Positions 10,067 to 25,922 of a stretch of DNA of 64,000 nucleotides are shown one piece after another (the first letter of the stretch is position 1; the number at the start of each line of letters is the position of its first letter). The stretch is from the NCBI RefSeq assembly GCF_002741035.1, contig NZ_CP016808.1, positions 6,682,501-6,746,500 on the forward strand, given 5' to 3'. Source of the stretch: Paenibacillus sp. BIHB 4019 (lineage in GTDB: Bacteria; Bacillota; Bacilli; Paenibacillales; Paenibacillaceae). Below the pieces are notes generated by a model that ran no database searches, was not told the DNA's origin, and worked only from the letters and a program-made list of their open reading frames with translations. A program made the translations under genes and the position numbers.

Positions 10067-11162
10067 GATGATTCAAAACCTTCTTCCTAAAGAACAATAT
10101 GACAGTAAGCAAGACAGGCACGAGAAAAAATAAAAAGATCCCTATTTTGCCTATCGAATCTCCCAGCTTAAACACTTCATTTATTCGCTTAGGCAGCATC
10201 GTAGTGATAAATATAACGGGTATTAATCCAAATATCACCGGGTGAATTTTAAGGTTAAAGACCTGAGAGATCCCTAACGAAGCATTAAAATAAAAGCTGG
10301 TGAAATTGCAAAATAACTGCATCATCCAGATGACCAAAAACGGAAACTCAAAACGTTCAAAAATTAACCCGGTAATTTCAAAGCTTCGCAAAAGGTCGAT
10401 GGTAGGCCATGTGCTATTCATTACCGAATCTACAGACATTCCTCCTATGACGACAACTACGGTCATAAGATACAGCACAAAAGGAACGCCTATGCCTGCG
10501 AAGGTCGCTCTGACTGCCCGCTCAGGATGCTGCATATGGGCAACGAGAGTCATAATGACTTCACATCCTGTAAAAATAAGTACAGTTGATTTCAACCCCT
10601 TAAATACGGGAACGACGCCTTCACTCAAAACAGGGCGCAAATTGTTAATATCAAACAAGCGGATACTCAGGAAATATGAAAACACCAATATTAGAATGCT
10701 GATCGGGAAAATAATTTGAAAAACCCGTGCAATGGAATTAATCCCTCCAAAACAAATATAGGTACCCACCCAAATAAAGGGAATGACAATGGCCCAAATC
10801 GGAGTTCCTTCCAGCAAATAATACAAGGTTACCTCTGCAAGTACCCTTATTTCAAAACCAGCAATAATAATATAATAAATAATTAAGCAGATGCTTAAAA
10901 CTCCGCCAGGCACTGAGCCTACAATTCGTTTAGAGTATTGATATACCGTATCATTAGGAAATTTCTGACTTAATTTTACCATGATCATCGTTACTAAAAT
11001 AACGATAATGCCGCCTAGCAGCACAGATAGCCAGACATCCGGTGTTTGTGCAGCTTCGATTACACCTCGGGGCAAGGTCAAAATACCAGCCCCCAGCACT
11101 GAATCCGTAATAAAGATCGAGGTTTGTGTGGTGGTGATTTTATCATCGTTGCGAATAAACAC
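10059..11162 (-). CDS. Spore germination permease (GerAB-type, APC superfamily)
   Basis: The B subunit of the germinant receptor: an amino-acid-permease-like membrane protein of 367 residues with about ten hydrophobic segments. It opens with TTQTSIFITDSVLGAGILTLPRG, the usual GerAB start with the unwound first helix. In the family this subunit binds the germinant, often an amino acid; the ligand here cannot be read from sequence. Start GTG with AGAGGAGG 7 nt upstream. It follows the A subunit by 26 bp. Confidence 0.93.
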   Translation of the reverse strand: MFIRNDDKITTTQTSIFITDSVLGAGILTLPRGVIEAAQTPDVWLSVLLGGIIVILVTMIMVKLSQKFPNDTVYQYSKRIVGSVPGGVLSICLIIYYIIIAGFEIRVLAEVTLYYLLEGTPIWAIVIPFIWVGTYICFGGINSIARVFQIIFPISILILVFSYFLSIRLFDINNLRPVLSEGVVPVFKGLKSTVLIFTGCEVIMTLVAHMQHPERAVRATFAGIGVPFVLYLMTVVVVIGGMSVDSVMNSTWPTIDLLRSFEITGLIFERFEFPFLVIWMMQLFCNFTSFYFNASLGISQVFNLKIHPVIFGLIPVIFITTMLPKRINEVFKLGDSIGKIGIFLFFLVPVLLTVILFFRKKVLNHHV

Positions 11163-11188
11163 GTCTGCGCCTCCTCTCTAAGCCGTTA

Positions 11189-12871
11189 CTATCTTCGCTT
11201 CTTGTCTTGCGTCTTCATCATGTCCGGTCGTTTATTCATAAATGGCAGCGGGGCACGCAGAAATAAATCCTTCCAGTCGTTAAAGCGAAACGGCGAGATC
11301 GGTGTTACATAAGGAACTCCAAAGCTTTTCAGCTTGCTTAAATGACCGCAAATAATCAAAAAAAACAATATAGTTCCAAACATCCCTAGCACTGCTGCAC
11401 ATAACATCCCAGCGAAACGTAAAATACGTAATGTAATGCCTGCGCTATATACGGGGATCGAAAAAGAGGAAATAGCCGTCACAGCTACTACGATTACTAA
11501 GAAAGGGCTGACAATGCCTGCCTGTACCGCGGCCTCGCCAATGATCAAACCGCCAACAATGCCCATTGCCGGTCCAATAGGCTTGGGCAATCGAATGCCC
11601 GCCTCACGCAATATTTCGATCGATATTTCCAAAATCATCACTTCTATTAATGAAGGAAAGGGGACGCCCTGCCTTGTTTCTATGATCGTAACGGCAAGCT
11701 CGGTCGGGATTAAGCCCGGATGAAAGGAAATAAACGAAATATATAAAGCTGGTGCCATTAATGCCAAGAACGCTGCGAAAAATCGCAGCATGCGCAAAAG
11801 GGTCCCCGGCAGCCAACGATCATAATAATCCTCAGGCGATTGCAGCAGCATGCTAAACGTTACTGGAACAATTAGAGCAAAAGGAGTGCCATCTAATAGA
11901 ATGGCTATCCTGCCTTCCAATAATCCGCTAATGACCCGATCCGGGCGTTCGGTATTTTGAGCTTGCTGAAATGGGCTTAGGTAATCATCTTCAATGAGCT
12001 GTTCCACATAACCAGATTCAGCGATGAAATCCATATTGATTTTACCAACTCGATCTCTTACCTCCTGAAGCAGGTCTGGATTAACAATTTCCTTCATGTA
12101 AGCAATAACCAGCTTCTTCTTAATTCGAGTTCCTACCTCGTACATATTTATTTCCAGATCTTCACTAAAGCCTTGTCTGCGCAGCATTGATGTATTCTCA
12201 CTTAATAACTCGGTAAAACCGATTCGAGGACCACGAAGCAAAGCCTCAGAGCTCGGTTCATTGATTGCCCTGGTCTTCATGCCTGATGTTCCCATAAGTA
12301 GCGCTTGAGGCATGCCTTCAATGAACAAGGCTGTAAACCCCATCAAAATGGATTGTTTTAAATCATGAAATTCAGCAGCTTCGTAAACTTCGCAAACAGG
12401 CAGTACTTTATTTTGAAAATAAGAGGAGAACTCCAATGGATTAACTAAATGGCTCCCGTCTGTCATATCCTGCTTAACATCTGCCATCAAAATTTTCATT
12501 ATATGCTTACTGATCAGTTCTTCATTTTGCATCCCATCTATAAAAACGAGCGTAGCCCGAGCATGAAATTCTGTTATTTGAAATTCACGAAAATGGACAT
12601 CACTGTTACTGCCAATGGCTTGTTTAATTGCATTCAAATTTTCTTCATAATCTTCGGACAAATTCGAAGGAGCGGCATGGTGTTGATTCTTTCGTTCTTT
12701 TTGAATAGGAGCATTCTTATTTATAACTAATGACCGCAAATATGTATTCAGATAATAAAGAGCAATGGCAATGATCAGGCTTAAAATAGCCTGCGCACAA
12801 ATTTTCCAATCAGGAAGGTGCGAGATTATAACAGACCACACGCTATTCCATCCTTTCTTAATAAAGCTCAA
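11189..12871 (-). CDS. Spore germination protein GerAA-type (A subunit), with an extra N-terminal membrane segment
   Basis: The A subunit of the germinant receptor, thought to form the oligomeric ion channel. The N-terminal soluble domain (about residues 75-290; SDVHFREFQI, EGRIAILLDGTPFALIVPVTF at its end) precedes five or six membrane helices. At 560 residues it is longer than usual; the extra part includes a hydrophobic segment at about residues 22-45 ahead of the soluble domain. The listed start is TTG with AAAGGGA about 10 nt upstream; a GTG 10 codons later, behind AAAGGA, is an alternative. First gene of the A-B-C operon. Confidence 0.92.
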   Translation of the reverse strand: MSFIKKGWNSVWSVIISHLPDWKICAQAILSLIIAIALYYLNTYLRSLVINKNAPIQKERKNQHHAAPSNLSEDYEENLNAIKQAIGSNSDVHFREFQITEFHARATLVFIDGMQNEELISKHIMKILMADVKQDMTDGSHLVNPLEFSSYFQNKVLPVCEVYEAAEFHDLKQSILMGFTALFIEGMPQALLMGTSGMKTRAINEPSSEALLRGPRIGFTELLSENTSMLRRQGFSEDLEINMYEVGTRIKKKLVIAYMKEIVNPDLLQEVRDRVGKINMDFIAESGYVEQLIEDDYLSPFQQAQNTERPDRVISGLLEGRIAILLDGTPFALIVPVTFSMLLQSPEDYYDRWLPGTLLRMLRFFAAFLALMAPALYISFISFHPGLIPTELAVTIIETRQGVPFPSLIEVMILEISIEILREAGIRLPKPIGPAMGIVGGLIIGEAAVQAGIVSPFLVIVVAVTAISSFSIPVYSAGITLRILRFAGMLCAAVLGMFGTILFFLIICGHLSKLKSFGVPYVTPISPFRFNDWKDLFLRAPLPFMNKRPDMMKTQDKKRR

Positions 12872-12991: not shown

Positions 12992-13174
12992 CTAATGGTT
13001 GATATCACATTTGTTCAATATGAACGAAATTTGATTTTCAAGTCGATTGATCGCTTCTTGTGCTTCTTTGTCTTCCGCTTGCTGTTCACGAAGCGATTCA
13101 AGCTCCTGCTTGAGTTGATGCAGATCATCTCCCGCATTTGCACAATCATAATTGCTCTCGAGGCTGTCGAGCAT
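12992..13174 (-). CDS. Small coiled-coil protein of unknown function
   Basis: 60 residues, strongly acidic and helical: a heptad-like Leu pattern in LHQLKQELESLREQQ and AINRLENQISFIL. A good ribosome-binding site (GGGGGA, 6 nt before ATG) and its own terminator support a real gene. Length resembles small sporulation-associated peptides, but the SxxxD motif of Spo0E is absent. No function can be assigned. Confidence 0.65.
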   Translation of the reverse strand: MLDSLESNYDCANAGDDLHQLKQELESLREQQAEDKEAQEAINRLENQISFILNKCDINH

Positions 13175-13298
13175 GTTTGATCCCCCAATCCATAGGTAAG
13201 TGTACTTGAGTATTATGATTAATTTCCATTCATTTATTCATCTCCCTCAAATTTCACTATCGCCTACCGAGTCAAAGAAGCCTAATTCTATATAAATA

Positions 13299-13353
13299 AA
13301 GACCCGCAAGACGGTCGCTTGGCTCACCAAGCGGCTGTTCTTACGGGTCTTTG
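13299..13353. terminator. Bidirectional hairpin terminator next to the cotD-like gene
   Basis: Outer arms AAGACCCG (13299-13306) and CGGGTCTT (13344-13351), with an inner CGCTTGG/CCAAGCG hairpin. T-rich tails follow in both directions. On the minus strand it ends the CotD-type gene. Confidence 0.8.
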
Positions 13354-13366
13354 TTTACTATTCAGC

Positions 13367-13675
13367 CTATTTTTTTGAACGTTTTTTTGCAGATGCTTTA
13401 GCCCGCTTCGCGCGTTTCATACTCGAAACCATAACATTTTTCTCCGTATGCGTGAAATGCTGTTGGTAGACAGGGCAACAATGATGCTGCTTCACCGTTT
13501 CAATGTTTTGAACGACATTCACAAGCTGCGGGTGGTAGTAGTTCTCGTATTGTACGATCGGAGGATCATAAATCGTCTGCGTTGGACAATCGGGACAAAA
13601 GTTCATGTCATTCATGCCGCCTACATTACCCATACTCATACCCATATTCATATTATAGTAATTATTTCGTTTCAA
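13367..13675 (-). CDS. CotD-type spore coat protein
   Basis: 102 residues. A Met/Asn/Gly-rich start is followed by FCPDCPTQTIYDPPIVQYENYYHPQ in two parts, then HHCCPVYQQHFTHTEKNV, the His/Cys/Tyr-rich pattern of CotD-family inner coat proteins, and ends in a Lys/Arg-rich tail (KRAKRAKASAKKRSKK). In Bacillus, CotD is a structural protein of the inner spore coat. Start is TTG with AAAGGGG 9 nt upstream. It is probably expressed in the mother cell late in sporulation; I did not identify the promoter. Confidence 0.8.
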   Translation of the reverse strand: MKRNNYYNMNMGMSMGNVGGMNDMNFCPDCPTQTIYDPPIVQYENYYHPQLVNVVQNIETVKQHHCCPVYQQHFTHTEKNVMVSSMKRAKRAKASAKKRSKK

Positions 13676-13841
13676 AATAATTATCCCCTTTCGGTTTTGG
13701 AATACACGTTATTGTATTCGCAGAAAGAGAATGCGGCTTGTATGTTTGACATGGAAGGCTATCGCCTCCCCTGTTTCTGCGGCTTGGAGTGCGTGATACG
13801 AGCTCAAGCCTTGCTTTTACGCAGCTGCTTTATTTTGATTC

Positions 13842-13903
13842 CAAGCGTACACGGCTGCCGCCTTCCACTGGCGGCAAAGCTGCCGTTTCGCGTTGAAATA
13901 TAA
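13842..13903 (+). repeat. Interspersed hairpin repeat, copy A
   Basis: Core from AAGCGTACACGGCTGCCGCC to GCTGCCGTTTCGCGTTG. Outer arms (AGCGT.CACG / CGTTTCGCG) and the inner arms around CTGGCGG form an imperfect stem-loop, followed by GAAATATA. The same element recurs at 21651, 21739 and 61450. Here it lies downstream of cntE. Confidence 0.8.
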
Positions 13904-13926
13904 ACCCATTATAAGGATCGTACTTA

Positions 13927-15126
13927 TCATTTCTTATATTTAACAAAAATTTCACGTCGCTCATAAGAAAAAACAATCATCGACACGCCTAAAATCGCGC
14001 AAAGCATATACATAAAGGAATAAGAGAAAATATCCGCTACCGGCCCCATAATAACTCCGCCAAGCGAAACGCCCAAATCCGCCGTAGCAATAAATAAGCC
14101 AATTAGTACATTACGATTCAATTGCGGCAAAACAAAAGTTAAGTACGTCGTTAATGTTGGATAGAGCAGTGCTTGAGCAATCCCCATCAAACCTGCGCCA
14201 GCATAGAAAAAGACGGCTCCGCCCATTGCAGAAAAACTGACACATAACGCTGCTGCAGCTAGCATCAGCATAATGACCATGACAAAAGCAGAATGCCATT
14301 TGCCATCCGAAGGAATTTTCTTTCGTAAGGTAAATCGGGCCACTACTACGGCTCCCGCCTGCAGCATGAGATAAATCGCCGCATTTCCGCCTTCGATTTG
14401 TGAAGCATATAGCGGTATGAAGGTGGTCACCGCTCCAAATACAAGGGAAGCGATCAGCATCAGCACGCTGCATTTGAACAAATGCGGGTTTTTGAATAAC
14501 TGGCCAAAGGACTCGGACATCGTACTGCCCTGCCCTTTCTGACCCGTATCAGGCTCAGCCTCGGCCGCTTGTTTGTCCATTTTGGCGCTATAGCCTACAA
14601 TCCCAGTAAGGATAGCAATCGCGATCATAGCCACTGTGAAATGATTCATATTTCCTGCTTGCCAAATGCCTAAAGCCAATAAGGGACCGATTATACCCGG
14701 CATCGAAGCACATAAGGAATACATGGAAATCCCCTGTGAACGGTCCTTTTCTGGCAGTGCATCAATAATGCCCAGTTGCAAAGCCATGGAGAAAAAGGCC
14801 GTACATACACCTTGCAGCATACGGGCGACAAAATAACCCTCTAATCCTGTAAACGTGTATAGAACTAAAGCAAAGCCATTTATGATAAGAATCGTGCGCA
14901 GCACACGGATAGGGCCGTACTTTTGAATCATTTTGCCCGCCCATGGCCGAAAAAACATCGTAGTAAACAAATACGCCCCCATAATGATACCAATCGTTGT
15001 ATTGGTAGCGCCAAGCGATTCGCCCTTCAAGGGAATGATGACATTAAGTATGGAGTTTGCACTAAAATACAGCAGGGTCAAAATATATAATCGTACAAAA
15101 GGCCATGATAAAGCTCCTCTCACCAC
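13927..15126 (-). CDS. cntE: Staphylopine-type metallophore exporter CntE (MFS)
   Basis: A 12-helix major facilitator, 399 residues, with motif A-like RPWAGKMIQKYGP after helix 2. It is the last gene of a cntKLMABCDFE operon; in Staphylococcus aureus the MFS protein at this place, CntE, exports staphylopine. Substrate assignment rests on this position. The GTG start has AGGAAGGAG 5 nt upstream. The operon ends shortly before a hairpin repeat (copy A); no classical terminator is seen there. Confidence 0.85.
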   Translation of the reverse strand: MVRGALSWPFVRLYILTLLYFSANSILNVIIPLKGESLGATNTTIGIIMGAYLFTTMFFRPWAGKMIQKYGPIRVLRTILIINGFALVLYTFTGLEGYFVARMLQGVCTAFFSMALQLGIIDALPEKDRSQGISMYSLCASMPGIIGPLLALGIWQAGNMNHFTVAMIAIAILTGIVGYSAKMDKQAAEAEPDTGQKGQGSTMSESFGQLFKNPHLFKCSVLMLIASLVFGAVTTFIPLYASQIEGGNAAIYLMLQAGAVVVARFTLRKKIPSDGKWHSAFVMVIMLMLAAAALCVSFSAMGGAVFFYAGAGLMGIAQALLYPTLTTYLTFVLPQLNRNVLIGLFIATADLGVSLGGVIMGPVADIFSYSFMYMLCAILGVSMIVFSYERREIFVKYKK

Positions 15127-15185
15127 TTCTGCTCCTTCCTCTATTCTCCTTGTGACTGACTCTGGAACTCTCTTCGCTGCTAGCG

Positions 15186-15929
15186 TCAGGTAATAATCAT
15201 CTGCAGCAATCTCCTTGCATACGCTGACTGGACGTCTTTTATTTGTTCTATATGGACCATTTCTTCGATTCGGCCATTTCTCATCATCAAAACTTTATCG
15301 CAAATATAAGCGGCAGCCTGAATATCATGGGTGATGAAAATGTAGGCCATGTTGTAAATTTTCCTCAAGCTTTTTAGCAATTCAAGCACCTGCATTTGCA
15401 CGGAGCCGTCCAAAGAGCTAATCGCTTCATCAAATACGATGCATTTGGGTTCTGTTGCAACGGCTCTTGCGATGCATATGCGCTGAGCTTCCCCACCCGA
15501 TAGCTCATGCGGGTATTTTTTTCGATAGGACGGGTTTAAGCCCACCTGCTGCAGGAGCAAATCCATTTTGTCCTGAGCTTCAAATCGACCTCTTCTTTGC
15601 TGTTTTAAAGGCTCCATCAGTGCCTGTTCTACTGTATAAAAGGGGTTAATCGAGGAGGAATAGTCCTGAAATACGGCGCTAATCTGTCCCCTTCTCGCTC
15701 GTCGATCCTCTACGTTGTTCCCCTCAAATAAAATCGTTCCGCTATCAGGCTTTTCAAGCCCCAATAATAATCGTCCCAATGTCGATTTGCCGCTTCCGCT
15801 TTCCCCGATAATGCCCAGGCATTCACCCTGCCCGCATTCGAAGCTAATGTCTGTCAGCACCTGCTGTATTTCCTTTGAGAAAAATCCGCCTTTTATATAG
15901 AATTTATGAACATGGTCAACGCTGAGCAA
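15186..15929 (-). CDS. cntF: Metallophore ABC importer ATPase CntF
   Basis: An oligopeptide/nickel-type ABC ATPase, 247 residues: Walker A GESGSGKST (near residue 40), Q-loop VFQDYSSSINP, signature LSGGEAQR and Walker B CIVFDEAISSLD, in which the usual DEPTSALD reads DEAISSLD. It pairs with CntD to power uptake of metal-staphylopine through CntBC. TTG start with GGGAGG 8 nt upstream; it overlaps the end of cntD by 14 bp, so the two are probably translationally coupled. Confidence 0.9.
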   Translation of the reverse strand: MLSVDHVHKFYIKGGFFSKEIQQVLTDISFECGQGECLGIIGESGSGKSTLGRLLLGLEKPDSGTILFEGNNVEDRRARRGQISAVFQDYSSSINPFYTVEQALMEPLKQQRRGRFEAQDKMDLLLQQVGLNPSYRKKYPHELSGGEAQRICIARAVATEPKCIVFDEAISSLDGSVQMQVLELLKSLRKIYNMAYIFITHDIQAAAYICDKVLMMRNGRIEEMVHIEQIKDVQSAYARRLLQMIIT

Positions 15930-16737
15930 GGCTAACGCCTCCCATTAATCGCTTGAAATGATCATTCAGAGCTTGCTTCGAGGATACTAAATATCGGGTA
16001 TAGGCATGCGCAGACTCCGAGAAAATAAACGGGCTCGTCCCGTGATCCACAATTTCCCCTTCTTTCATAACCAGAACGTCATCCGCTATTTTTCGGACGA
16101 TGCCTAAATCATGAGAAATAAAAATCATCGAGCAGCCCATTTTCTCCCGCAATTGAATAAATTGTTCAACGACCTCGAACTGCGAGATCGTATCAAGAGC
16201 CGTCGTCGGCTCATCCGCGATAACGATAGCAGGCTCTAGCACCAGGGTGAGCGCAATCATAATCCGCTGCAGCATGCCGCCGGACAACTGATGCGGATAC
16301 ATATTCATCACCGCGATCGGATCTTTCAGCATCACGCTTTCCATAGCGCATTTCATTCTAGCCGTTATTTCTTCGCGGCCCCAACCGAAATGGCAGGCCA
16401 GCGTTTCCCGCAAATGAACGCCGACCACGCAAGAAGGATCAAAGGCACGCATCCCATTTTGCAAAATCATACACAGCTGCTTGCCTCGTTTTTTCCTCAT
16501 TTCCTTTTCCGAAAGCTCGCTGAGATTGACCCCGTTAAACAAAATGTCCCCGGCTTGACGGATGCCAGGCTTGTTTAATCTCATGATGGCTCTGCATGTG
16601 AGGGATTTCCCGCTTCCGCTTTCGCCGACAATAGCTAGGCATCGGCCTTGCTTGACATGAAAGGAGCTGCCCGGAACAATGACTTGCCCCGTCTGGCTGT
16701 CCCAAATTTTCAAATTCGCCACTTCTAAAATAGCCAT
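15916..16737 (-). CDS. cntD: Metallophore ABC importer ATPase CntD
   Basis: An oligopeptide/nickel-type ABC ATPase, 273 residues: Walker A GESGSGKSLT, signature LSGGMLQR, Walker B AIVIADEPTTALD and the H-loop FISHDLG. The ATG at 16737 is chosen because it follows the cntC stop codon by 4 bp and has AGGAGG upstream; an in-frame longer start would add a tail that is not ABC-like. Partner of CntF. In the cnt system this ATPase pair drives import of the nickel, cobalt, zinc or copper complex of the opine metallophore. Confidence 0.9.
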   Translation of the reverse strand: MAILEVANLKIWDSQTGQVIVPGSSFHVKQGRCLAIVGESGSGKSLTCRAIMRLNKPGIRQAGDILFNGVNLSELSEKEMRKKRGKQLCMILQNGMRAFDPSCVVGVHLRETLACHFGWGREEITARMKCAMESVMLKDPIAVMNMYPHQLSGGMLQRIMIALTLVLEPAIVIADEPTTALDTISQFEVVEQFIQLREKMGCSMIFISHDLGIVRKIADDVLVMKEGEIVDHGTSPFIFSESAHAYTRYLVSSKQALNDHFKRLMGGVSLAQR

Positions 16738-16741
16738 AAAA

Positions 16742-17635
16742 TCAAGCCACCTCCTTGCCTTGAAGTCTAGCAATGGAAGCAAGTCCCCGTGCTTGCTGCT
16801 TATATTTGGCGGCCGACAATTTAGGATCTAAAGCAATCTGAAGCGCATCTGACAAAAAGTTGATCGCCGATACGACTATAATAATCGTTAAACCGGGCGC
16901 GAGCATAAACGCCGGCTTCGAAAACATCACTTCCCTCGCCTCATTCAACATCATGCCCCACTCTGCATTCGGAGCCTGAATGCCTAAGCCCAGAAATGAA
17001 AAGCCTGATAATTGCAAGATCATGGAACCGAAGGAGCTGCTTGCAATGACCGCAATTTCTGGAAGCGATACTGGAACAATATGCTTGGCTATTATTTTGA
17101 AGTTGCTGACACCGAGCACTTTGGAAAACTTCACATAGTCGGATTCGGCATATTGCATCACAGAAGTTCTAATGATTCGCGCAAACCATGCCCATTTCAT
17201 CAAGACAAAAGCGAGCAAAATATTTTCAAGGCCTACCCCCAAAATACCGATCACGGCCAACGTCATGACATAACCAGGGAAAGAAAGCATCACATCACAA
17301 ATTCTCATCACAATAGCATCTATGATCCCTCTAAAATAACCTGCTATAAAACCTAAAACCGATCCAATTCCGACTGATACGGCCAATGCAGCAAGCACCC
17401 AAAGCACACTAGGACGGATTCCAAAAATTAATCTCGATAAAATGCAGCGCCCAAGATGATCGTTGCCTAACAAATACTCCCACGATGACGTTGCATATCG
17501 AAGCTCCATATGCACTTCTTCCGGATCATGCGGAGCAAACAAAGGAGCGAATATCCCGGCAGCCAGGGTCAAAACAAGAATCGATAAAGATGCTGCGGCC
17601 AGCTTATCTTTCAACAGAAATCGCAATCGTTTCAT
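16742..17635 (-). CDS. cntC: Metallophore ABC importer permease CntC
   Basis: A DppC/NikC-type permease, 297 residues with about six hydrophobic segments and the pattern LLGNDHLGRCILSRLIFG that marks the C-type subunit of dipeptide/nickel importers, plus the EAA-like loop KVLGVSNFKIIAKHIVP. The ATG follows the cntB stop codon directly; AAGGAAGGG precedes it. It forms the membrane channel together with CntB. Confidence 0.9.
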   Translation of the reverse strand: MKRLRFLLKDKLAAASLSILVLTLAAGIFAPLFAPHDPEEVHMELRYATSSWEYLLGNDHLGRCILSRLIFGIRPSVLWVLAALAVSVGIGSVLGFIAGYFRGIIDAIVMRICDVMLSFPGYVMTLAVIGILGVGLENILLAFVLMKWAWFARIIRTSVMQYAESDYVKFSKVLGVSNFKIIAKHIVPVSLPEIAVIASSSFGSMILQLSGFSFLGLGIQAPNAEWGMMLNEAREVMFSKPAFMLAPGLTIIIVVSAINFLSDALQIALDPKLSAAKYKQQARGLASIARLQGKEVA

Positions 17636-18568
17636 TTAGTGTCCCTTCCTTAATTTAGGGTTCATCGCCGCATTCATAATGTCAGAAACGGTGTTGAACA
17701 GCACAAAAGCCATGGCGAGTACAAGGACATACGCCTGAATGATCGGGAAATCCCTGCTAAGAATGGCTTTAACACTCAGCGTTCCTAACCCCGGCCAGGC
17801 AAAAATATTTTCCACAACGACCGTGCTGCCTAAAATAATCGGGATCGCCATACAAAACACAGATACAGCAACCTGCAACGAATTTCTCAATATATGCATC
17901 GTTATTTTCTTCTCTGGCAAACCGCTTGCCCTGCCATACAGCACGTAGTCTTCATTCATATTACTTAACATGGAGCTTCGAACGATTCGAAAATAAATGC
18001 CTGTATAACTGATCGTGATTACAAGGACAGGTAAAATATAGCTTTCGTACGAGTCCATCCCGCTTGTCGGCAGCAAATCCAATTGCACGGAAAAATACCA
18101 CACCATGAGCGCCGCGAGCCAATAAGGCGGCATGGAGGTTAGAAAAAAGGAAACGCCTCTGATCGATTTATCGGTCATTTTCCCTTCTCTAAGGGCACTA
18201 ATTACCCCTAATCCAATGGACAGCGCAATAATGGCAGCCGCCGACACCAACGTCAGCTTTAACGTATTTAGAAAAGCGGGAGCCAGCAAGGACCACACGG
18301 TTTTGCCGGTAACATACGAGTTCCCGAAATCAAGCTGCAGGCATGACACAAACCAGCTCAAATAGCGGATTAGAAATGGCCGATCCATCCCAAGTGCTGC
18401 TTTCGTTTCCGCTATTAATTCATCTGTTATAGCCGGCACGCCTTGCGCATGCAATATGACTTCAGCCGGATCTAACGGGGACAGATTGTTCAAGCCAAAC
18501 GTTAAAAAAGATATGATAACAAGCAAAGGAATCGAAAGGAGTGACCGTTTGATAATATAGCTGACCAT
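17636..18568 (-). CDS. cntB: Metallophore ABC importer permease CntB
   Basis: A DppB/NikB-type permease, 310 residues. It starts with YIIKRSLLSIPLLVIISFLTF and has the large periplasm-side loop (DPAEVILHAQGVP) and the EAA loop RASGLPEKKITMHILRNS typical of the B subunit. AAGGAG lies 6 nt before the ATG. It lies between the binding protein gene cntA and cntC, the standard order of the family. Confidence 0.9.
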   Translation of the reverse strand: MVSYIIKRSLLSIPLLVIISFLTFGLNNLSPLDPAEVILHAQGVPAITDELIAETKAALGMDRPFLIRYLSWFVSCLQLDFGNSYVTGKTVWSLLAPAFLNTLKLTLVSAAAIIALSIGLGVISALREGKMTDKSIRGVSFFLTSMPPYWLAALMVWYFSVQLDLLPTSGMDSYESYILPVLVITISYTGIYFRIVRSSMLSNMNEDYVLYGRASGLPEKKITMHILRNSLQVAVSVFCMAIPIILGSTVVVENIFAWPGLGTLSVKAILSRDFPIIQAYVLVLAMAFVLFNTVSDIMNAAMNPKLRKGH

Positions 18569-18591
18569 AGCAAGCTCCTTGTTTTGGTTAT

Positions 18592-20226
18592 CTATTCAAA
18601 ATGCATTTGCTCAAAGGGCAGTTCAAATTGGGTTTGCTTAAATGAAATACCCTGCAAGTCTTTGGGAGCTACAATCGTAACGCTGCCATTGGTAATGGGA
18701 ATAAAGACGGCTTCATCATGAACGATCGTTAAAATATCCGCATACAACGATTTCCGTTTTTCCTCATCTTGCGTGACCATTACTTCATCTATTTTCTTGT
18801 ACAGCTCATCCGCTTGGGTGATGCCGCTTGTCGTGTGGTAATAAGCCGACTCGGAAGTAAAAGCAGAAATGGTGCTTTGCGGGTCGTAGGCGAGTCCCCA
18901 TGTTTGATTGAACAGCAAATCATAGTCTCCCGTCGCTCTTCTGCTTGCAATGGAGGAAGATTCTTCGCCGATAAGCTCCAACTGGACCCCGATCTTTTTT
19001 ACTGTGTTTTGAATGAACTCGGCCTCTGTTTTTTGCGAGGAGGAGCTGACGTCATAATAAAGCTTCATCGCTAATGGCTTGCCGTCCTTCATTCTAATCT
19101 CGCTGCCATTCTCCTGCATCCAGCCTGCTTTCTCCAGTAGCTGCTTCGCTTTATCCAAATCAAAGCCGCGTTGCTTTAGCTCGACATTTGCATAATTGAC
19201 GTTAGCGGAAAATAGCGTATGGGCTGCTGTTTCCGTACCGCTAAAAATTTGCTTGCTGATCGTTTCTCTGTCAATCGAATACCAAATGGCTTCACGAACA
19301 GCCGTTTCAAGGGCGGGATTATCCGCTTTGCTGCTGTTGGCAACGATCATCTTCGTATTCATCGCTTTGCTTCTGACAAGCTGGAAGTCGCCCGAATCCA
19401 TTAACTGATTCATCGCATCCACATCAATGCTGTCTGAGCCCCGATCATCCGTAAATATAAAGTTGACCTCTCCCTTTTTCAGCGCCAAAAAGGTCGTCTC
19501 CCCTGCCGGAAGCACCTTCGCTGTAATGCTCTTCACCTTTGGCGCACCGCCCCAATAGCTATCATTCGCTTTGAATGCCGCATATTGATCGGTTTTATGT
19601 TCGGTTAACTTATAGGGCCCCGTGCCGTTATGGCCGCTTACGCCATCTTTCGTTTCCCCATTAACAAAATCTTTGGGCGAGATGAATACATAGGGCCTAG
19701 TCATTGATAATTCAAGCAATGCCGGGTAATACGGCTCGGACAGCACCATTTCAAACGTATACTCATCGAGTACGCTTACGCTCACAATTTTCGTCGAAAG
19801 CTTGATCCAGGCATGCTTGCTTGCATTGCTTTGCACCGCTTCTATATTCTTCTTTACCGCATCGGCGTTAAATGGCTCGCCATCGTGGAATTTCACATCT
19901 TTTCTTAAATGAAAGGTGTATACTTTGCCATCGTCAGACACGTTCCATGATTCGGCAAGCAATGGCTTAATACCATCCTCCGTGTTTTCAACTAATGATT
20001 CGTACACCATCCCTTGCGCTGGCAATGAGCCGGGATACAAATGGGGGTTCATATCATTAATATCCTTTGCTGTGGCGTATACCAGCACCTTGGCTTGATC
20101 CGCTGCTTCTTTTTTTGCAGCATTTCCAACATTTCCAGCATTACGTTCATTACCGCCACTGCAGCCTGCCAATAATACAATTGAAACGAGTAATGCCGAT
20201 AATAAAACAACGATTTTTCTTGTCAT
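18592..20226 (-). CDS. cntA: Metallophore-binding lipoprotein CntA (ABC solute-binding protein)
   Basis: A SBP_bac_5 (peptide/nickel) lipoprotein of 544 residues. The lipobox is LLAGC with Cys22. Body motifs include LAESWNVSDDGKVYTFHLRK, VKFHDGEPFNADAVKKNIE and NGTGPYKL, typical of NikA/OppA-type proteins. In S. aureus CntA captures the staphylopine-metal complex at the membrane surface. The ATG at 20226 is chosen (GGAGG 7 nt upstream); an in-frame GTG 27 bp earlier would place that site inside the gene. It follows cntM by about 30 bp. Confidence 0.9.
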   Translation of the reverse strand: MTRKIVVLLSALLVSIVLLAGCSGGNERNAGNVGNAAKKEAADQAKVLVYATAKDINDMNPHLYPGSLPAQGMVYESLVENTEDGIKPLLAESWNVSDDGKVYTFHLRKDVKFHDGEPFNADAVKKNIEAVQSNASKHAWIKLSTKIVSVSVLDEYTFEMVLSEPYYPALLELSMTRPYVFISPKDFVNGETKDGVSGHNGTGPYKLTEHKTDQYAAFKANDSYWGGAPKVKSITAKVLPAGETTFLALKKGEVNFIFTDDRGSDSIDVDAMNQLMDSGDFQLVRSKAMNTKMIVANSSKADNPALETAVREAIWYSIDRETISKQIFSGTETAAHTLFSANVNYANVELKQRGFDLDKAKQLLEKAGWMQENGSEIRMKDGKPLAMKLYYDVSSSSQKTEAEFIQNTVKKIGVQLELIGEESSSIASRRATGDYDLLFNQTWGLAYDPQSTISAFTSESAYYHTTSGITQADELYKKIDEVMVTQDEEKRKSLYADILTIVHDEAVFIPITNGSVTIVAPKDLQGISFKQTQFELPFEQMHFE

Positions 20227-20257
20227 GTCATATCCTCCTGTATAAGTGCGCACTCCA

Positions 20258-21571
20258 TCACCTGTGTCCTATACTGCTGCTAATTTCACTACAAATCATC
20301 TTCAAATCTTCTTCAAAGCTTTGGACAACGAAGGCATCCGATATTTTTTCGCCTTTAAGCGCTTGGGCAGCTTCCTCGATTTTATGCTCATAGGCTGCAA
20401 TGAATTTATCAAGGGTTGGGCAGCTTGAGCCTGCGAATCTCGCAATGCCCTGAATGATTTTTATCCGATAATAATCCTCCTTGGGCATTCGCGGAATATC
20501 CCAATATTGCTCTTGGTTGACGAAGATTTGACGAATGGGGACGGCGGAAAAATCGAAATATTTCCCGTCCTGATCCGGCTCCGAGAATGGATCGATTAAC
20601 AGCGACGTATAACGTATGTACAATAAATACTCTTGATGAATCGTCTCCAGCTGATTAAAATAATCGATATCATGACGCGATAAGCTCTCTAATCTAACCG
20701 GATAATTGTCATCGGTCATGAACTTGAGCAGATTTACACCATTCAAATTCAGCTTTTCGATCACATTCGTCATCTCTTTCCACCCGGCCAGCATATCGCG
20801 AATTAAATATTGCGTAATAGGTCCTTCGGGAAACATTTTATATACATATTTCCTTACAGCTGAATGGCCGAATATAACGTTGAGTGAAAAAGGGTTCATA
20901 AACAATGGCGGATGGACATAGAGAGAGATGTTTCTCGTCTCCGCCTCTATGGGACTGCCCATGGCTTCAAGCCTAATGCCCAATCGTTCAAATAGTGCAC
21001 AGAGCCTTTCTACATTCGGTGATGCATCGTTCGAGGAGCCAATGAAAACCTTTTTCTTAACTCCTGTCGTCAACACATGATTGGTTGGCTCGCCGCTCTT
21101 CCAGCGTGTATCGCCAAGGTAGGTAGAAAAGCTGATGATGTCCACATTTACATTTGGCAAAATCGTATTCATATAATGGCGTACTAAGCTGTTGGAGCCG
21201 AAGGTGGGCGAAATTAATACGATGCACCTTACTTGTTGGAGCAGTTGATCACTAAGCTGCTTCAAAACCTCCATATACGCATCGGTTGTGACAGAAAAGA
21301 TCAGCGTATCCCATTCTCCCGTTATGCTGCCATATCCATCATAAACATGATCGATAATACAGCTGCCTTCCATCGGCTGATGCTTTTTATTTTGAACGTC
21401 TACCCTCACTTGATTTTGGCTGTGCTTAAGTGCCGTAAAAAACCGTTCCGAACGGGCCGACTTTCTGCCAACAATGCCAATGCGGCTGTTCAAATCCTTT
21501 TTTAGCGTGACGGCAAGCTGAATAGCAGCGGGCCCCGTGCCTACGATTAACACGCGTTGGAATTCACTCAT
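20258..21571 (-). CDS. cntM: Staphylopine dehydrogenase CntM (opine dehydrogenase)
   Basis: Catalyses the last biosynthetic step: NADPH-dependent reductive condensation of the xNA intermediate with a 2-oxo acid. The Rossmann motif VGTGPAAIQLA is at the N-terminus. Compared with S. aureus CntM the match is strong throughout (ILISPTFGS, FSTYLGDTR, NHVLTTGVKKK, ETRNxSLYVHPPLFMN, PVR, DYYR). The residue equivalent to Arg33 (NADPH preference) is Arg36 in VGRKS; the residue equivalent to Asp150 (pyruvate selectivity) is Asp154 in YLGDTR. Start ATG 21571 has AAAAGGAGG just upstream; an earlier in-frame ATG lacks one. Confidence 0.95.
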   Translation of the reverse strand: MSEFQRVLIVGTGPAAIQLAVTLKKDLNSRIGIVGRKSARSERFFTALKHSQNQVRVDVQNKKHQPMEGSCIIDHVYDGYGSITGEWDTLIFSVTTDAYMEVLKQLSDQLLQQVRCIVLISPTFGSNSLVRHYMNTILPNVNVDIISFSTYLGDTRWKSGEPTNHVLTTGVKKKVFIGSSNDASPNVERLCALFERLGIRLEAMGSPIEAETRNISLYVHPPLFMNPFSLNVIFGHSAVRKYVYKMFPEGPITQYLIRDMLAGWKEMTNVIEKLNLNGVNLLKFMTDDNYPVRLESLSRHDIDYFNQLETIHQEYLLYIRYTSLLIDPFSEPDQDGKYFDFSAVPIRQIFVNQEQYWDIPRMPKEDYYRIKIIQGIARFAGSSCPTLDKFIAAYEHKIEEAAQALKGEKISDAFVVQSFEEDLKMICSEISSSIGHR

Positions 21572-21650
21572 ATAAACCTCCTTTTGATTCATGATGAAGC
21601 CTGTGCTTTTTTTAAAATCTAAGAATTTAGTAGTTTCACTCTTATATCAT

Positions 21651-21709
21651 CGCGAAACGGCAGCTTGGCCGCCAGAGGATGGCGAAAGCGGTTTACGCTT
21701 GAAATATAG
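21651..21709 (-). repeat. Interspersed hairpin repeat, copy B
   Basis: Core on the plus strand runs from CGCGAAACGGCAGCTTGGCC to AAGCGGTTTACGCTTGAAAT. It is in the opposite orientation to copies A and D and in tandem with copy C, from which it is separated by an AT-rich inverted repeat (GAAATATAG...CTATATTTC). Lies between cntL and cntM. Confidence 0.85.
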
Positions 21710-21737
21710 GAAAGTATATGTTTATTTTATCCTTTCT

Positions 21738-22580
21738 CTATATTTCTACGCGAAACGTAGCTTTACCGCCAGAGGATGGCGAAAGCGGTTTACGCTTGTA
21801 CAAAGCTATATCAAACACATGGTCAGGACGCAATATGGTGTCAACCAGCCTCCACCTTCCTTCTTTCACCGCTTGCATAGGGTAATTGAATAAGGACTTC
21901 AGTTGATCGCCGTATCTCATCGCCACGACCACTTGCTCGTTCGTTAAGTCATATAATTGCTCCAGCAGCTCGTACTTATTGGAAACGGTTGAGCTGAAAA
22001 TGATATGGGTCACATCCTTGATGACATCAAGCTGCTCTATGAACGCTTTTTCTAACCGAATGTTTAATTCGCTTCCTAATTTATGTATGACTTTTCGTCC
22101 TAGCTCGATAGCTTCCTCATCGATATCAATGCCGACTACTTGTGCGCCCGTCCGCTTTGCGATAAATAATGGCGTCATGGGGAACGAGCCTGAGCCAATC
22201 AACAATACGGTGGAATCCGCCGTGACTTGAAAGCTGCCAAATTCTTGTTCAATGCAGGACTCGATATTTTTAAAATAATCGGTATTGTCCACTTCTCCAT
22301 CCAGCAGCTTCAAGGCGCGATATTTTTCCATAATAGCGACGCATAACGAAGACATCTTCCTTAGGTCAGCGAGAAGCAGAGGAAGCTCATTACCGGCTTG
22401 CTGCTCAAAGGTTTCCCATGATGCTTTGTTCCCCTCGTCTAGAATGAAAGCGGAATAGTCATCTATGACCCGCTCTAGGTCCGAGCTATTATGAGACGTG
22501 CCGTCATATCGCTTTACTAAATCCGTAAACCGATCTAGAAACAAGGTCAAGCTTTGTTCAAATGTTGTTAACTGATTCAT
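21738..22580 (-). CDS. cntL: Nicotianamine synthase-like enzyme CntL, with a repeat-derived C-terminus
   Basis: Transfers an aminobutyrate group from S-adenosylmethionine to D-histidine in staphylopine synthesis. The methyltransferase-like SAM site is visible: VLLIGSGSFPMTPLFIAK, then VVGIDIDEEAIELG. It sits between the cntK and cntM genes as in S. aureus. ATG 22580 is chosen (GGAGGAGAAGGGA just upstream). The last 19 residues (from KRKPLSPSSGG to the end FRVEI) and the TAG stop are encoded by hairpin repeat copy C; without them the protein is about 261 residues. Confidence 0.92.
   Translation of the reverse strand: MNQLTTFEQSLTLFLDRFTDLVKRYDGTSHNSSDLERVIDDYSAFILDEGNKASWETFEQQAGNELPLLLADLRKMSSLCVAIMEKYRALKLLDGEVDNTDYFKNIESCIEQEFGSFQVTADSTVLLIGSGSFPMTPLFIAKRTGAQVVGIDIDEEAIELGRKVIHKLGSELNIRLEKAFIEQLDVIKDVTHIIFSSTVSNKYELLEQLYDLTNEQVVVAMRYGDQLKSLFNYPMQAVKEGRWRLVDTILRPDHVFDIALYKRKPLSPSSGGKATFRVEI
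21739..21798 (-). repeat. Interspersed hairpin repeat, copy C, overlapping the 3' end of cntL
   Basis: Tandem to copy B in the same orientation. Plus strand: CTACGCGAAACGTAGCTTTA, CCGCCAGAGGATGGCGAAAG, CGGTTTACGCTTG. It provides the last codons and the stop codon of cntL. Confidence 0.85.
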
Positions 22581-22607
22581 TCCCTTCTCCTCCATACCCA
22601 TTAATCG

Positions 22608-23444
22608 TTATACAGAAATAAATGCTTTGCCTTGTGCTACGATTCCAACAGATCCTTCAATTTTCAAGCTTGTTACCTCATCTTTATAGCAATCAGCCGT
22701 TACATGAATCGTGCCGCCGGGCTGCTTAACTGGCGCAGCAATAGCCCCTTTGTTTTTCCATGACAGATAGGCGCCAAGTGAAGCCGTCCCTGATCCGCAG
22801 CCTCGCTCCCATATCATGCTGTCTAAAGGAGGAACGTAAATGAGCGGAGCCATTTCATTAGAGTCAGATTTAAACAATAATATGCCGATCAAGTTGGCTC
22901 CTAACGTTATGCCGAGCAGCTTGGCTAATGATTGGGCTCTCGCCTTCTCAGCCCTGTCGAACTGCTCTACTTCAATGACAATATGAAAAAAATCATCATA
23001 GCGCACAATGACCATATTCAAATCGTCGCCTTCATACACAACGGTCTTCTGCTCGATTTTTCGAGGCATAGGCATCGCCACTTGGCAAAAATACTCTTCT
23101 TGTATTTTTTTCACTTGGCATGTCACTAATTGATCGGTTCCCGACGCTTCTAATACGATTTCCATTAAATCGCTTTGCTTGATTCCTTGTTCAGAAGCAA
23201 TAAAAGCAGCCAGCGCCATACACGCATTTCCGCAAAACTCACCTCCCGCCATTTGCAAATAGGCAGCAGCTCCGTGTTTGCTGGGCTGTTTGATAAAGCC
23301 TACTTGTTCAGCATAAACATTGTCATAAGACATCATCTTTGAAGCAATGTGCTTGTACTCGGAAGCCGCATGATTGGTTTTCACAAGAATGGTCATATTT
23401 TGCGTGGGGTTGAACTTTACAAAATCGATTTCTCGTTTCATCAT
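22608..23444 (-). CDS. cntK: Histidine racemase CntK (DapF-like)
   Basis: First gene of the metallophore operon; makes D-histidine from L-histidine, the substrate of CntL. It has the diaminopimelate-epimerase fold with two catalytic cysteines of the cofactor-independent racemase: Cys71 in GGEFCGNACMA and Cys216 in WERGCGSGTAS. In the known family, presence of CntK separates staphylopine and bacillopaline (D-His) from pseudopaline (L-His). AGAGGG lies upstream of two adjacent ATG codons (23444 and 23441); either may be used. A strong promoter and a palindromic operator precede it. Confidence 0.93.
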   Translation of the reverse strand: MMKREIDFVKFNPTQNMTILVKTNHAASEYKHIASKMMSYDNVYAEQVGFIKQPSKHGAAAYLQMAGGEFCGNACMALAAFIASEQGIKQSDLMEIVLEASGTDQLVTCQVKKIQEEYFCQVAMPMPRKIEQKTVVYEGDDLNMVIVRYDDFFHIVIEVEQFDRAEKARAQSLAKLLGITLGANLIGILLFKSDSNEMAPLIYVPPLDSMIWERGCGSGTASLGAYLSWKNKGAIAAPVKQPGGTIHVTADCYKDEVTSLKIEGSVGIVAQGKAFISV

Positions 23445-23499
23445 AACTACCCTCTAATTCATTTTTTTTGATCCAGCGCTCCTCCTGCTTTATCTCCAC

Positions 23500-23522
23500 T
23501 TAATAGTAATGATTACTATTAA
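23500..23522. promoter_or_regulatory. 23-bp perfect palindrome, Zur/Fur-type operator of the cnt operon
   Basis: Arms TTAATAGTAAT and ATTACTATTAA around a central G. The form NNAATNATTNN with AT-rich arms resembles Zur and Fur boxes of Bacillota. It begins right after the transcription start predicted from the promoter at 23534-23562 and ends 56 bp before cntK. In S. aureus the cnt operon responds to both Zur and Fur. Confidence 0.75.
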
Positions 23523-23533
23523 CATTCGAGTAC

Positions 23534-23562
23534 ATCATAACCATAATTTGGAGCACTGTCAA
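23534..23562 (-). promoter_or_regulatory. Consensus sigma-A promoter of the cnt operon
   Basis: On the minus strand TTGACA (23562-23557) and TATGAT (23539-23534) are separated by exactly 17 bp. The palindromic operator lies immediately downstream. Confidence 0.85.
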
Positions 23563-23620
23563 TGATGAAAATAGACAGATTGTGCCCGGACTAGCAGGCT
23601 TCAAAATGGAACAATCAAAA

Positions 23621-23666
23621 AAAACCCGTCAAGAGCCTTGATCTTACAAGGCTCTTGACGGGTTTT
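23621..23666 (-). terminator. Strong intrinsic terminator between the EamA gene and the cnt operon
   Basis: 20-bp perfect arms (23621-23640 and 23647-23666; inner part CAAGAGCCTTG/CAAGGCTCTTG) with a 6-nt loop, then a run of eight T on the minus strand. Confidence 0.93.
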
Positions 23667-23735
23667 AACTCCTGATGCATTTGCGTATTTTACGCTGAAG
23701 CATCGACTATTAACGACTACTATTAGCGGCTGCTA

Positions 23736-24755
23736 TCAACGACTGCTTCGCAAGGCTTCTGAGCCTTGCGGGACTATGGCCTCTTTCCGCGTCCGATTGA
23801 CCATGTAAATGCCAAAAGATACGAACAGCAGGGCCACGAGATTTTTAAACTCCATAATCTGTTCACCGAGAAACAACGCGGACAGCAAGGTCCCGAACAC
23901 AGGAATAAGGAAGTTATAAACGGACACCTGCCCGACTTTGTTATATTTAAGCAGCAAATTCCACAGGCAAAACGCGGCTGAGGACAGCAGCGCCAAATAA
24001 ATAAGGTTGCCTGTCGACTCCGGTGTAAAATGCGTCACACGGCCCCCAAGTCCAAGACCCAGCAAGGTTAGAGCCAAGCCGCCAATGAGCAAGCTGTAGC
24101 CTGTCACTAGCAAAACATCAATGGTCGCTGTCAGCTTTTTGGCATAAATGGCCGTGATAGAGAAGATGAGGGCTGCCACAATGACGAACCCCTCCCCTTT
24201 AAAGGAGAAGGAAAACTCCAGCAAATCCGTATGGAAATTCACAACAATAACGCCGATAAACCCGAGCAGGCAGCCGAAAATTTTATTTTTGCCCAGCTTG
24301 TCATTTTTATAAAGGTAATGGGCCAAAATGACGCTGAAAAAGGTCGTCGTTGCATTCATAATCGAGCCTTTGACGCCTGTTGTATTGCCTACTCCCACAT
24401 AAAAAAATATATATTGGAGACCTGTCTGCAGCAGGCCCAGAACGAGCAAGCTTGTTAGCTGGTTTCTCGATAAGGAAAGCACCTGCTTGCCCGTTGCCCG
24501 GAATAACACGAGCAGCACCAGCCCTGCCAGCACAAAGCGATAGCCGGCAAAAACATATTTTGAAGCGATGTCCTCCGGCATAATGTCAAAGGCGAGATAG
24601 CCCAGCTTAATAGTCGGATAGGCACTCCCCCACAATAAGCAGCACAAAGTAGCAATTAACGCTACAAATTTCGGATCGCTAAACCTGCTCCGATTACTTT
24701 GCAGCATTTCATTGCGTTGTTTCTGTTGATTCTTTTGTTCCTTCTGTTCCTTCAC
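23736..24755 (-). CDS. EamA family (DMT superfamily) transporter
   Basis: A ten-helix drug/metabolite transporter with two EamA repeats: first ALIATLCCLLWGSAYPTIKLG, second starting near GFVIVAALIFSITAIYAKKL. Both repeats begin with the usual inward helix. The cargo is unknown; members of the family export amino acids, metabolites or drugs. The GTG at 24755 is preferred (AGGAGAAGG upstream), though the ATG 18 bp earlier is possible. The N-terminus is Lys/Gln-rich (KEQKEQKNQQKQRN). It is separated from the cnt operon by a strong terminator, so it is not part of it. Confidence 0.85.
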   Translation of the reverse strand: MKEQKEQKNQQKQRNEMLQSNRSRFSDPKFVALIATLCCLLWGSAYPTIKLGYLAFDIMPEDIASKYVFAGYRFVLAGLVLLVLFRATGKQVLSLSRNQLTSLLVLGLLQTGLQYIFFYVGVGNTTGVKGSIMNATTTFFSVILAHYLYKNDKLGKNKIFGCLLGFIGVIVVNFHTDLLEFSFSFKGEGFVIVAALIFSITAIYAKKLTATIDVLLVTGYSLLIGGLALTLLGLGLGGRVTHFTPESTGNLIYLALLSSAAFCLWNLLLKYNKVGQVSVYNFLIPVFGTLLSALFLGEQIMEFKNLVALLFVSFGIYMVNRTRKEAIVPQGSEALRSSR

Positions 24756-24857
24756 AGCCAACCTTCTCCTCATCCTTTATATCTCAAGCGGCAGCTCCAA
24801 TGGCGCGCCTCCAACGACCATATCATAATTCGGCACAGCTTGTAAGGAGAAAAATCG

Positions 24858-24904
24858 AATAAGCCCGGAAAAACCTTTTATAATCAAGGTCTTCCGGGCT
24901 TATT
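24858..24904 (-). terminator. Hairpin after the first pectate lyase gene
   Basis: Perfect 13-bp arms AATAAGCCCGGAA (24858-24870) and TTCCGGGCTTATT (24892-24904). On the minus strand it is followed only by CGATTTT, a modest U-tract. Confidence 0.75.
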
Positions 24905-24913
24905 GAACAAACA

Positions 24914-24928
24914 AGAAAGCGCTTTCAA
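24914..24928. promoter_or_regulatory. cre-like palindrome (CcpA site) downstream of the pectate lyase gene
   Basis: On the minus strand TTGAAAGCGCTTTCT fits the catabolite-response consensus WTGNAANCGNWNNCW. It lies between the stop codon at 24972 and the terminator, an unusual place for a repressor site. Confidence 0.4.
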
Positions 24929-24971
24929 TTTAGATCTCCACATTAGCCATTTCGAAAGAGCATTACTCTAA

Positions 24972-25922
24972 TTACTTGGATGGCCAGTTGCCATACCAGG
25001 CGTAGCCTGTTCTTCTTTCCTGGTCGATATCGCTGAGCTTGTACTTCACTATACCGTCGCGGCCCACAAAGATTGGCTTGTTGGTACCAATCTCATAGAA
25101 CCGCGCCCAGATTGGGGTAGTGGCGCTCGGACCGCTGATTACAACAACATCATTGCTCGTTTTCTCGACCCGGATTCCCGTAATTTGTACCGCTTTGAAC
25201 CAATCTTCAGCCCCTTTAATCGCAGCGGCGATTTTCGTAGTGGACGATCTCGTTTTCAAAAACTTCACAATGTTTACGCTCTCTTGCGCAGTGAGTGACG
25301 GCACTTCATAAATTCTTGCCCCCGCCGGCTTCAACGTGCTGGTGTCATGCTGCTGGCCCCATGCTGTCAATTTGCCGCTAACTGTAACTTGCGTGTTCAA
25401 AATGCAGTCAACTCCTCTGTCTACCGCCTGCTTGCTTTTGGCAGCAAGCGTGCTGTCGATAAAGGAGAAATCCTCTTTTTTATTCGCAATCTCATCCAAT
25501 AAAATCAGGACATTAACCATTGCATTATCATTATAGGTAATATGTTGATGATAGCCAGAGCTTTGATAAACTTGCGGGAATCCCCCATTCGCATATTGCA
25601 TATTGATTAGAAAATTAATGCCCTTGATCGCTGCTGTAGAATATTTGCTGTCCTTCGTTTTCTGATATTCGGTCGCCAATCTGCGAATTTCCGAGTAAGT
25701 TGCCTTATTGTCGATTGTTGACTTGGACCACTCGCCACTAGTTTCTGAGTAATCCTTTCTCCAGCCTCCATCCGCTTGCTGGTTTTTCAAAACATCGGAG
25801 AGGCTTGCTGTCGTGCCCGAAGCATCTGCCGCTATCACCATTGTAAGCGGTTGCATGATTACGGCTGGAACAGAGAGAAGCATGCTAAGAGCTAAAGCTG
25901 CGGATACTGTACTTCTTTTCAT
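24972..25922 (-). CDS. Secreted pectate lyase, polysaccharide lyase family 10 (paralogue 1)
   Basis: Cleaves polygalacturonate by beta-elimination outside the cell. 316 residues: signal peptide (to about residue 33, ...VIAADA), then an alpha/alpha PL10 domain with NQQADGGWRKDY, NMQYANGGFPQVY, ITYNDNAMVNVLILLD, GARIYEVPSLTAQES and the terminal VGRDGIVKYKLSDIDQERR and GYAWYGNW. In studied PL10 enzymes the Asp of the YNDNAM region and an Arg of the ARxYExPSL region are catalytic; both are present here. AAAGGGG lies 10 nt before the ATG. A close paralogue follows at 28146. A cre site lies in the 5' coding region. Confidence 0.92.
   Translation of the reverse strand: MKRSTVSAALALSMLLSVPAVIMQPLTMVIAADASGTTASLSDVLKNQQADGGWRKDYSETSGEWSKSTIDNKATYSEIRRLATEYQKTKDSKYSTAAIKGINFLINMQYANGGFPQVYQSSGYHQHITYNDNAMVNVLILLDEIANKKEDFSFIDSTLAAKSKQAVDRGVDCILNTQVTVSGKLTAWGQQHDTSTLKPAGARIYEVPSLTAQESVNIVKFLKTRSSTTKIAAAIKGAEDWFKAVQITGIRVEKTSNDVVVISGPSATTPIWARFYEIGTNKPIFVGRDGIVKYKLSDIDQERRTGYAWYGNWPSK
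25842..25856 (-). promoter_or_regulatory. cre site (CcpA) inside the 5' coding region of pectate lyase 1
   Basis: On the coding strand ATGCAACCGCTTACA fits WTGNAANCGNWNNCW completely. It lies 66-80 bp after the start codon, a common place for repressing cre sites in Bacillota. The equivalent stretch in the second lyase gene lacks the central CG. Confidence 0.55.

Follow-up and report, generated by a model that had tools for sequence, protein, structure and literature searches.

A putative staphylopine operon in Paenibacillus sp. BIHB 4019 and the use of the name bacillopaline for related clusters

Introduction

The staphylopine operon of Staphylococcus aureus carries nine genes, in the order cntKLMABCDFE. 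Its closest described relatives are the bacillopaline operon of Paenibacillus mucilaginosus (locus L210, CntM protein P0030) and the pseudopaline and yersinopine systems of Pseudomonas aeruginosa and Yersinia, which use the same kind of CntL and CntM chemistry. Here we describe a cnt operon of the soil bacterium Paenibacillus sp. BIHB 4019, located within a 64,000-nucleotide stretch of contig NZ_CP016808.1 (assembly GCF_002741035.1, positions 6,682,501 to 6,746,500 of the forward strand) that is referred to below as the window, and from which all coordinates are numbered.

The rules linking residues of CntK and CntM to the product are said to come from Laffont and co-workers in 2019. They are quoted by Morey and Kehl-Fie (2020, PMC7438024), a paper that gives the functions of the cnt genes in the legend of its Figure 1. 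According to this source, the presence of CntK means that D-His is used, while Asp at position 150 of CntM selects pyruvate and Ala selects alpha-ketoglutarate; the pseudopaline and yersinopine systems lack CntK and use L-His.

Predicted product of the operon

CntM of the window was aligned to the solved S. aureus and P. aeruginosa enzymes, and again with MAFFT, using the numbering of S. aureus CntM, and the alignment is gap-free around columns 33 and 150. Column 33 is Arg (codon AGA, 21464-21466) and column 150 is Asp (codon GAT, 21110-21112), the latter within the sequence STYLGDTR, a context identical to that of S. aureus. P. aeruginosa CntM has His and Ala in these two columns, and the enzyme of P. 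mucilaginosus KNP414 has Arg and Ala. In CntK, Cys71 and Cys216 fall on the columns of both S. aureus CntK cysteines. The original prediction, made from the letters of the window, had named these CntM and CntK residues, and the alignments to the S. aureus, P. aeruginosa and P. mucilaginosus enzymes bear it out; the product it proposed, assembled from D-His, aminobutyrate and pyruvate, follows from the published rules as given in PMC7438024. Staphylopine is predicted because the presence of CntK and Asp150 fit both of these rules. The operon thus resembles that of S. aureus in its nine genes and their order, in Arg33 and Asp150 and in both CntK cysteines. Taking all of the evidence together, we put the probability at about 0.85 that this is a zinc-repressed opine-metallophore operon, most likely making staphylopine, and the support for the predicted product is good, if not chemical.

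By analogy with characterized relatives, the system would work as follows. Under zinc limitation, release of the palindrome (23500-23522) by a Zur-type repressor would allow transcription of the operon. CntK would convert L-His to D-His, CntL would add an aminobutyrate group from S-adenosylmethionine, and CntM, with Asp150, would condense the CntL product reductively with pyruvate. The metallophore would be exported by CntE, and its metal complex, once bound outside the cell by CntA, would be imported by CntBCDF.

Gene content and order

Nine adjoining open reading frames (ORFs) of 247-553 amino acids, all of them open, occupy 13927-23444 on the minus strand and were identified with Pfam and NCBIfam models. 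The first, cntK (22608-23444), encodes a histidine racemase that scored 228.8 bits with NF033599 (cut-off 300). Its structural matches include S. aureus CntK (6l4l, E 3.8e-43), chains from S. aureus that carry the deposited name diaminopimelate epimerase, and a histidine racemase. The gene is followed by cntL (21738-22601), for a nicotianamine-synthase-like aminobutyrate transferase (NF033601, 311.6 bits, cut-off 350; solved CntL 7c7m, E 4.5e-68), and by cntM (20258-21571), for an opine dehydrogenase that matched PF10100, Staphylopine dehydrogenase, at E 1.5e-204 and scored 536.9 bits with NF033600 (cut-off 675); its closest solved proteins are the staphylopine, pseudopaline and yersinopine dehydrogenases. 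The metallophore-binding lipoprotein CntA (18592-20226) scored 1008.4 bits with NF047575 (cut-off 800) and aligned to the solved 5yh8 (E 5.5e-191) and 5yhe. Two permeases come next: CntB (17636-18568) was recognized by the Opp1B nickel/cobalt permease model (NF045469, 499.9 bits, cut-off 380), there being no dedicated CntB model among its NCBIfam matches, and CntC (16742-17635) by NF047573 (498.7 bits, cut-off 440). CntD (15916-16737), an ATP-binding cassette (ABC) ATPase, scored 469.3 bits with NF047578 (cut-off 380) and also passed the CntF model (466.3, cut-off 385). The second ABC ATPase, CntF (15186-15929), is named by its position, its best match being nikE (248.3, cut-off 332.55), and the last gene, cntE (13927-15126), encodes a major facilitator superfamily (MFS) exporter (NF047574, 717.8 bits, cut-off 235). 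The curated staphylopine cut-offs of NCBIfam were reached by CntA, CntC, CntD and CntE. Three of the frames open upstream of the likely start, which is an internal ATG: cntM (frame from 21592, start at 21571), cntA (20253 and 20226) and cntD (16782 and 16737).

The identities given by these models confirm the gene order K-L-M-A-B-C-D-F-E that had been proposed from the sequence, cntF being assigned by position. cntL stands directly before cntM, and genes for import and export are nearby, the arrangement that defines an opine-metallophore locus in PMC7438024; the ORF list of the window contains no additional modifying enzyme between cntK and cntE. Downstream of the cnt operon, at 8876-12871 on the minus strand, is a spore-germination operon (GerXA-like protein, germination permease and Ger(x)C).

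Frequency of the operon and of Asp150 among relatives

Three overlapping genome sets were searched: 51 from the genus, 30 of which matched at E 1e-3, many of them weakly; 394 from the family, of which 114 matched at E 1e-40; and 392 from the order, of which 101 matched at E 1e-120. The surroundings were taken for nearly all strong matches; the split or partial cntM genes of genomes G330 and G206 were left out. This gave 122 related operons from the same taxonomic order, defined by a CntM at least 48% identical to that of the window, with the window itself excluded. Gene presence was judged by tblastn (E 1e-8), without checking frames individually, and the order cntKLMABCDFE was found in 108 of the 122; in the fetched span, six others have cntABC reversed, five are without cntE, and three are without cntK or more.

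Column 150 is Asp in 115 of these operons, Ala in five and unreadable in two (L159 and L160). Similarly, among the best 120 of 623 homologous CntM proteins, the window's own included, 117 have Asp and three have Ala (P0030, P0041 and P0084). The original prediction had treated Asp150 as notable for a Paenibacillus, which these counts do not support, the exception being P. mucilaginosus. Nor does Arg33 point to the product, as had been suggested: every one of the 119 operons in which column 33 could be read (three of the 122 could not) has it, P. mucilaginosus included, so that it is uninformative, fails to discriminate between staphylopine and bacillopaline, and was rejected as a product marker. 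The operon is complete, ordinary and common among its relatives, and the contrast with bacillopaline, while correct as a prediction, is not surprising. Taxon and gene content place the window's operon in CntM cluster 1, already described in 2020 in PMC7438024, and no difference was found from that cluster: it comprises Paenibacillaceae with CntK, an MFS exporter and an oligopeptide-type importer, and residue 150 in it is predominantly aspartate with some alanine, as in P. mucilaginosus.

Promoter-like site, Zur-type box and upstream boundary

A promoter-like site (TTGACA-17-TATGAT) precedes cntK at 23534-23562 on the minus strand and, with 11 of 12 consensus positions, is the best in the scanned region 13300-25000, although that region holds 21 such sites against 22.2 in shuffles, which is no excess. 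Just downstream of the -10 element is a 23-bp palindrome, TTAATAGTAATCATTACTATTAA (23500-23522), that is symmetric except for its centre base. The stretch 23445-23562, quoted in the original prediction, contains both elements. The palindrome is a putative Zur-type operator, resembling the Zur box of Bacillus subtilis. Of 119 relatives, 116 have the box ahead of cntK with up to two mismatches, compared with 6 of 595 shuffled upstream sequences; four related forms were allowed, the shuffles preserve base composition only, and the three of the 122 loci lacking a cntK match were omitted. Broken down by mismatches, 68 of the 119 operons have none, 29 have one, 19 have two, two have three and one has five.

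Elsewhere in the same genome, boxes with two to three mismatches are found at two loci with metal-transport genes. At L252 the neighbour is an ABC importer that scores best with models of manganese and zinc importers; at L251 it is a permease of the SO_0444 Cu/Zn family, with a TIGR03943 protein next in line. All of these matches are below cut-off. When neighbours were inspected by eye, a box-like site at 4123925 was seen to adjoin an apparent iron-siderophore uptake gene, and no zinc gene was recognized beside another at 4357105.

The operon is separated from the gene upstream by a strong terminator-like hairpin (23621-23666, minus strand), consisting of a 20-pair stem followed by a T run. 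The upstream gene (23736-24773, minus strand) encodes an EamA-family transporter, which was rejected as a member of the system given the terminator before cntK and the finding by tblastn that, among 141 cnt loci, only the three nearest relatives, L061-L063, have it next to cntK. A search of 13000-25000 against Rfam returned nothing above the gathering score.

A repeat at the cntL/cntM junction

Between these two genes (21640-21805, minus strand) a palindromic repeat occurs twice in tandem, and no copy is found at the same place in the three nearest relatives, L061-L063. The gap between the genes is 166 bases, as against 10, 13 and 29 in these relatives. The cntL frame enters the repeat, so that the last 16 residues of CntL are repeat-encoded; this new tail falls outside the alignment to solved CntL, and cntM carries its own Shine-Dalgarno sequence. 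The junction RNA with its two repeat copies is predicted to fold at -52.5 kcal/mol (z -4.35). An inverted copy follows cntE (13838-13900), and a further copy lies at 61460-61482 on the plus strand. A search with one copy gave at least 54 matches within the same genome, and matches in 38 of the 51 genus genomes; the repeat is often tandem, with a 98-base period (loci L243-L245 and L247-L249 of the same genome). It had no Rfam match in 13000-25000, and nothing relevant to it was found in the literature on Paenibacillus palindromic repeats, among the matches listed.

Alternative readings

Several of these results, together with others given here, weigh against a zinc-repressed staphylopine operon. 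CntK, CntL and CntM missed the curated staphylopine cut-offs of NCBIfam despite strong matches, and the ORF taken as CntF missed its model (152.7, cut-off 385), so that the operon differs from that of S. aureus in these scores, as well as in the box and the repeat insertion of the window's lineage. Since the three enzymes lie below the curated cut-offs, the operon is filed as of opine-metallophore type with a predicted staphylopine product, not as a set of proven Staphylococcus equivalogs. Across the whole genome, box-like sites are not enriched: there are 10, compared with 20 in a reversed control, and for the core alone the counts are 2 and 6. Genome-wide enrichment was accordingly rejected as proof of Zur, and because the counts do not exceed the control, the boxes beside zinc-type genes provide a second line of evidence for Zur that is only suggestive. 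To these may be added the repeat that separates cntL from cntM and, finally, the statement in PMC7438024 that the choice of keto acid is also shaped by residues other than 150.

The last of these points would allow CntM to take both keto acids, or another one, and to give a mixture or a further variant. This appears unlikely, as residue 150 and its neighbours are as in S. aureus and no extra modifying enzyme lies between cntK and cntE. Production of bacillopaline, with alpha-ketoglutarate in place of pyruvate, is what annotation by similarity to the P. mucilaginosus cluster would imply, and that operon has the same gene order, a CntK, Arg33 and a CntM 70% identical to that of the window; genome papers also use the name bacillopaline for Paenibacillus clusters. 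Column 150 is Ala in P. mucilaginosus but Asp in the window, where the S. aureus-like local context is kept, and the Ala expected of a bacillopaline enzyme was not found in the alignment, making this product quite improbable. It is highly improbable that the repeat has damaged expression or CntL and that the strain is thereby losing a working operon. The junction does fold strongly where the nearest relatives have 10-29 bases, and the CntL tail has been replaced; yet none of the nine frames is interrupted, cntM is served by a Shine-Dalgarno sequence of its own, and the replaced tail lies beyond the region aligned to solved CntL. A staphylopine-type operon remains the preferred reading.

Origin of Ala150 and divergent loci

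A 32-row tree places P. mucilaginosus in one group (support 99/99) together with P. caseinilyticus (Asp; L211), P. methanolicus (Ala; L069, P0084) and P0041 (Ala), and L227 carries an Ala of its own on a long branch. This tree requires a minimum of three Asp/Ala changes; however, uniting the four Ala rows within the P. mucilaginosus group in a single clade was not rejected (p-AU 0.327). Two of the changes may therefore be a single event, and a firm count of independent switches was dropped. A 151-row FastTree that included five CntK-less sequences gave five changes among Asp, Ala and Ser. Codon 150 is GCT in P. mucilaginosus and GAT in P. caseinilyticus, compatible with one base change, and from the rarity of Ala we infer that the direction was Asp to Ala.

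The remaining Ala operons are L158, L231 and L227. L158 and L231 combine cntKLM and Ala150 with importer genes that share only 23-31% identity with cntABCDF, and cntE was not recognized in them; their predicted product would combine D-His with alpha-ketoglutarate and use a different importer. L227, with Ala150, has no recognized cntK or cntABC. The 19 loci without CntK (18 genes, since L162 and L179 gave one gene; the second copies of G311 and G312 are excluded) have Ala in 15 cases and Ser in four. An Asp150 operon of the window type occurs together with a distant cntM that has no recognized cntK (Ala or Ser) in four genomes, G131 (L086, L169), G163 (L099, L173), G324 (L067, L172) and G332 (L123, L178), and perhaps these cells make two metallophores. 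Locus L160, at the place of L060 in Paenibacillus harenae DSM 16969, retains cntA-cntE (80-88% identity), whereas cntK is unmatched and cntL and cntM are represented by fragments only. This may reflect metallophore uptake without synthesis, or an assembly fault.

The name bacillopaline in the literature

Genome papers often assign clusters to bacillopaline by similarity. It is reported at 100% in P. vandeheii (PMC10628120) and in Brevibacillus brevis (PMC12654256); in PMC12926252 it heads the well-matched clusters in frequency (24), and P. peoriae is among the species with 100% matches to the fusaricidin B, bacillopaline and tridecaptin clusters. The name is also used for Paenibacillus strains in PMC11233627 and for 'P. 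jepli' in PMC12067966. Proteins named as from P. vandeheii (P0096), P. peoriae (P0078) and B. brevis (P0013 and P0014) all have Asp150, although they may come from other strains than those of the papers. The label is probably wrong for most such clusters, including those of species with Asp150, which judging from this residue would more likely make staphylopine. No correction of it was found among the open-licence papers listed; of those that mention bacillopaline, one, PMC7438024, also uses the name staphylopine.

On balance, we favour the view that staphylopine is the usual zinc metallophore in Paenibacillus and related bacteria, that bacillopaline is a rare, P. mucilaginosus-like offshoot that arose by an apparent single-codon change (GAT to GCT), and that most 'bacillopaline' clusters of Paenibacillus and Brevibacillus are misnamed. 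A single column of CntM separates the predicted staphylopine operons from the predicted bacillopaline operons, and the reference strain, P. mucilaginosus, is atypical in that column. Calls of bacillopaline by similarity score, which in PMC12654256 and PMC12067966 are accompanied by iron-siderophore or antimicrobial roles, can be checked by one alignment, and the close pair of P. caseinilyticus (Asp) and P. mucilaginosus (Ala) offers a natural test of the keto-acid rule.

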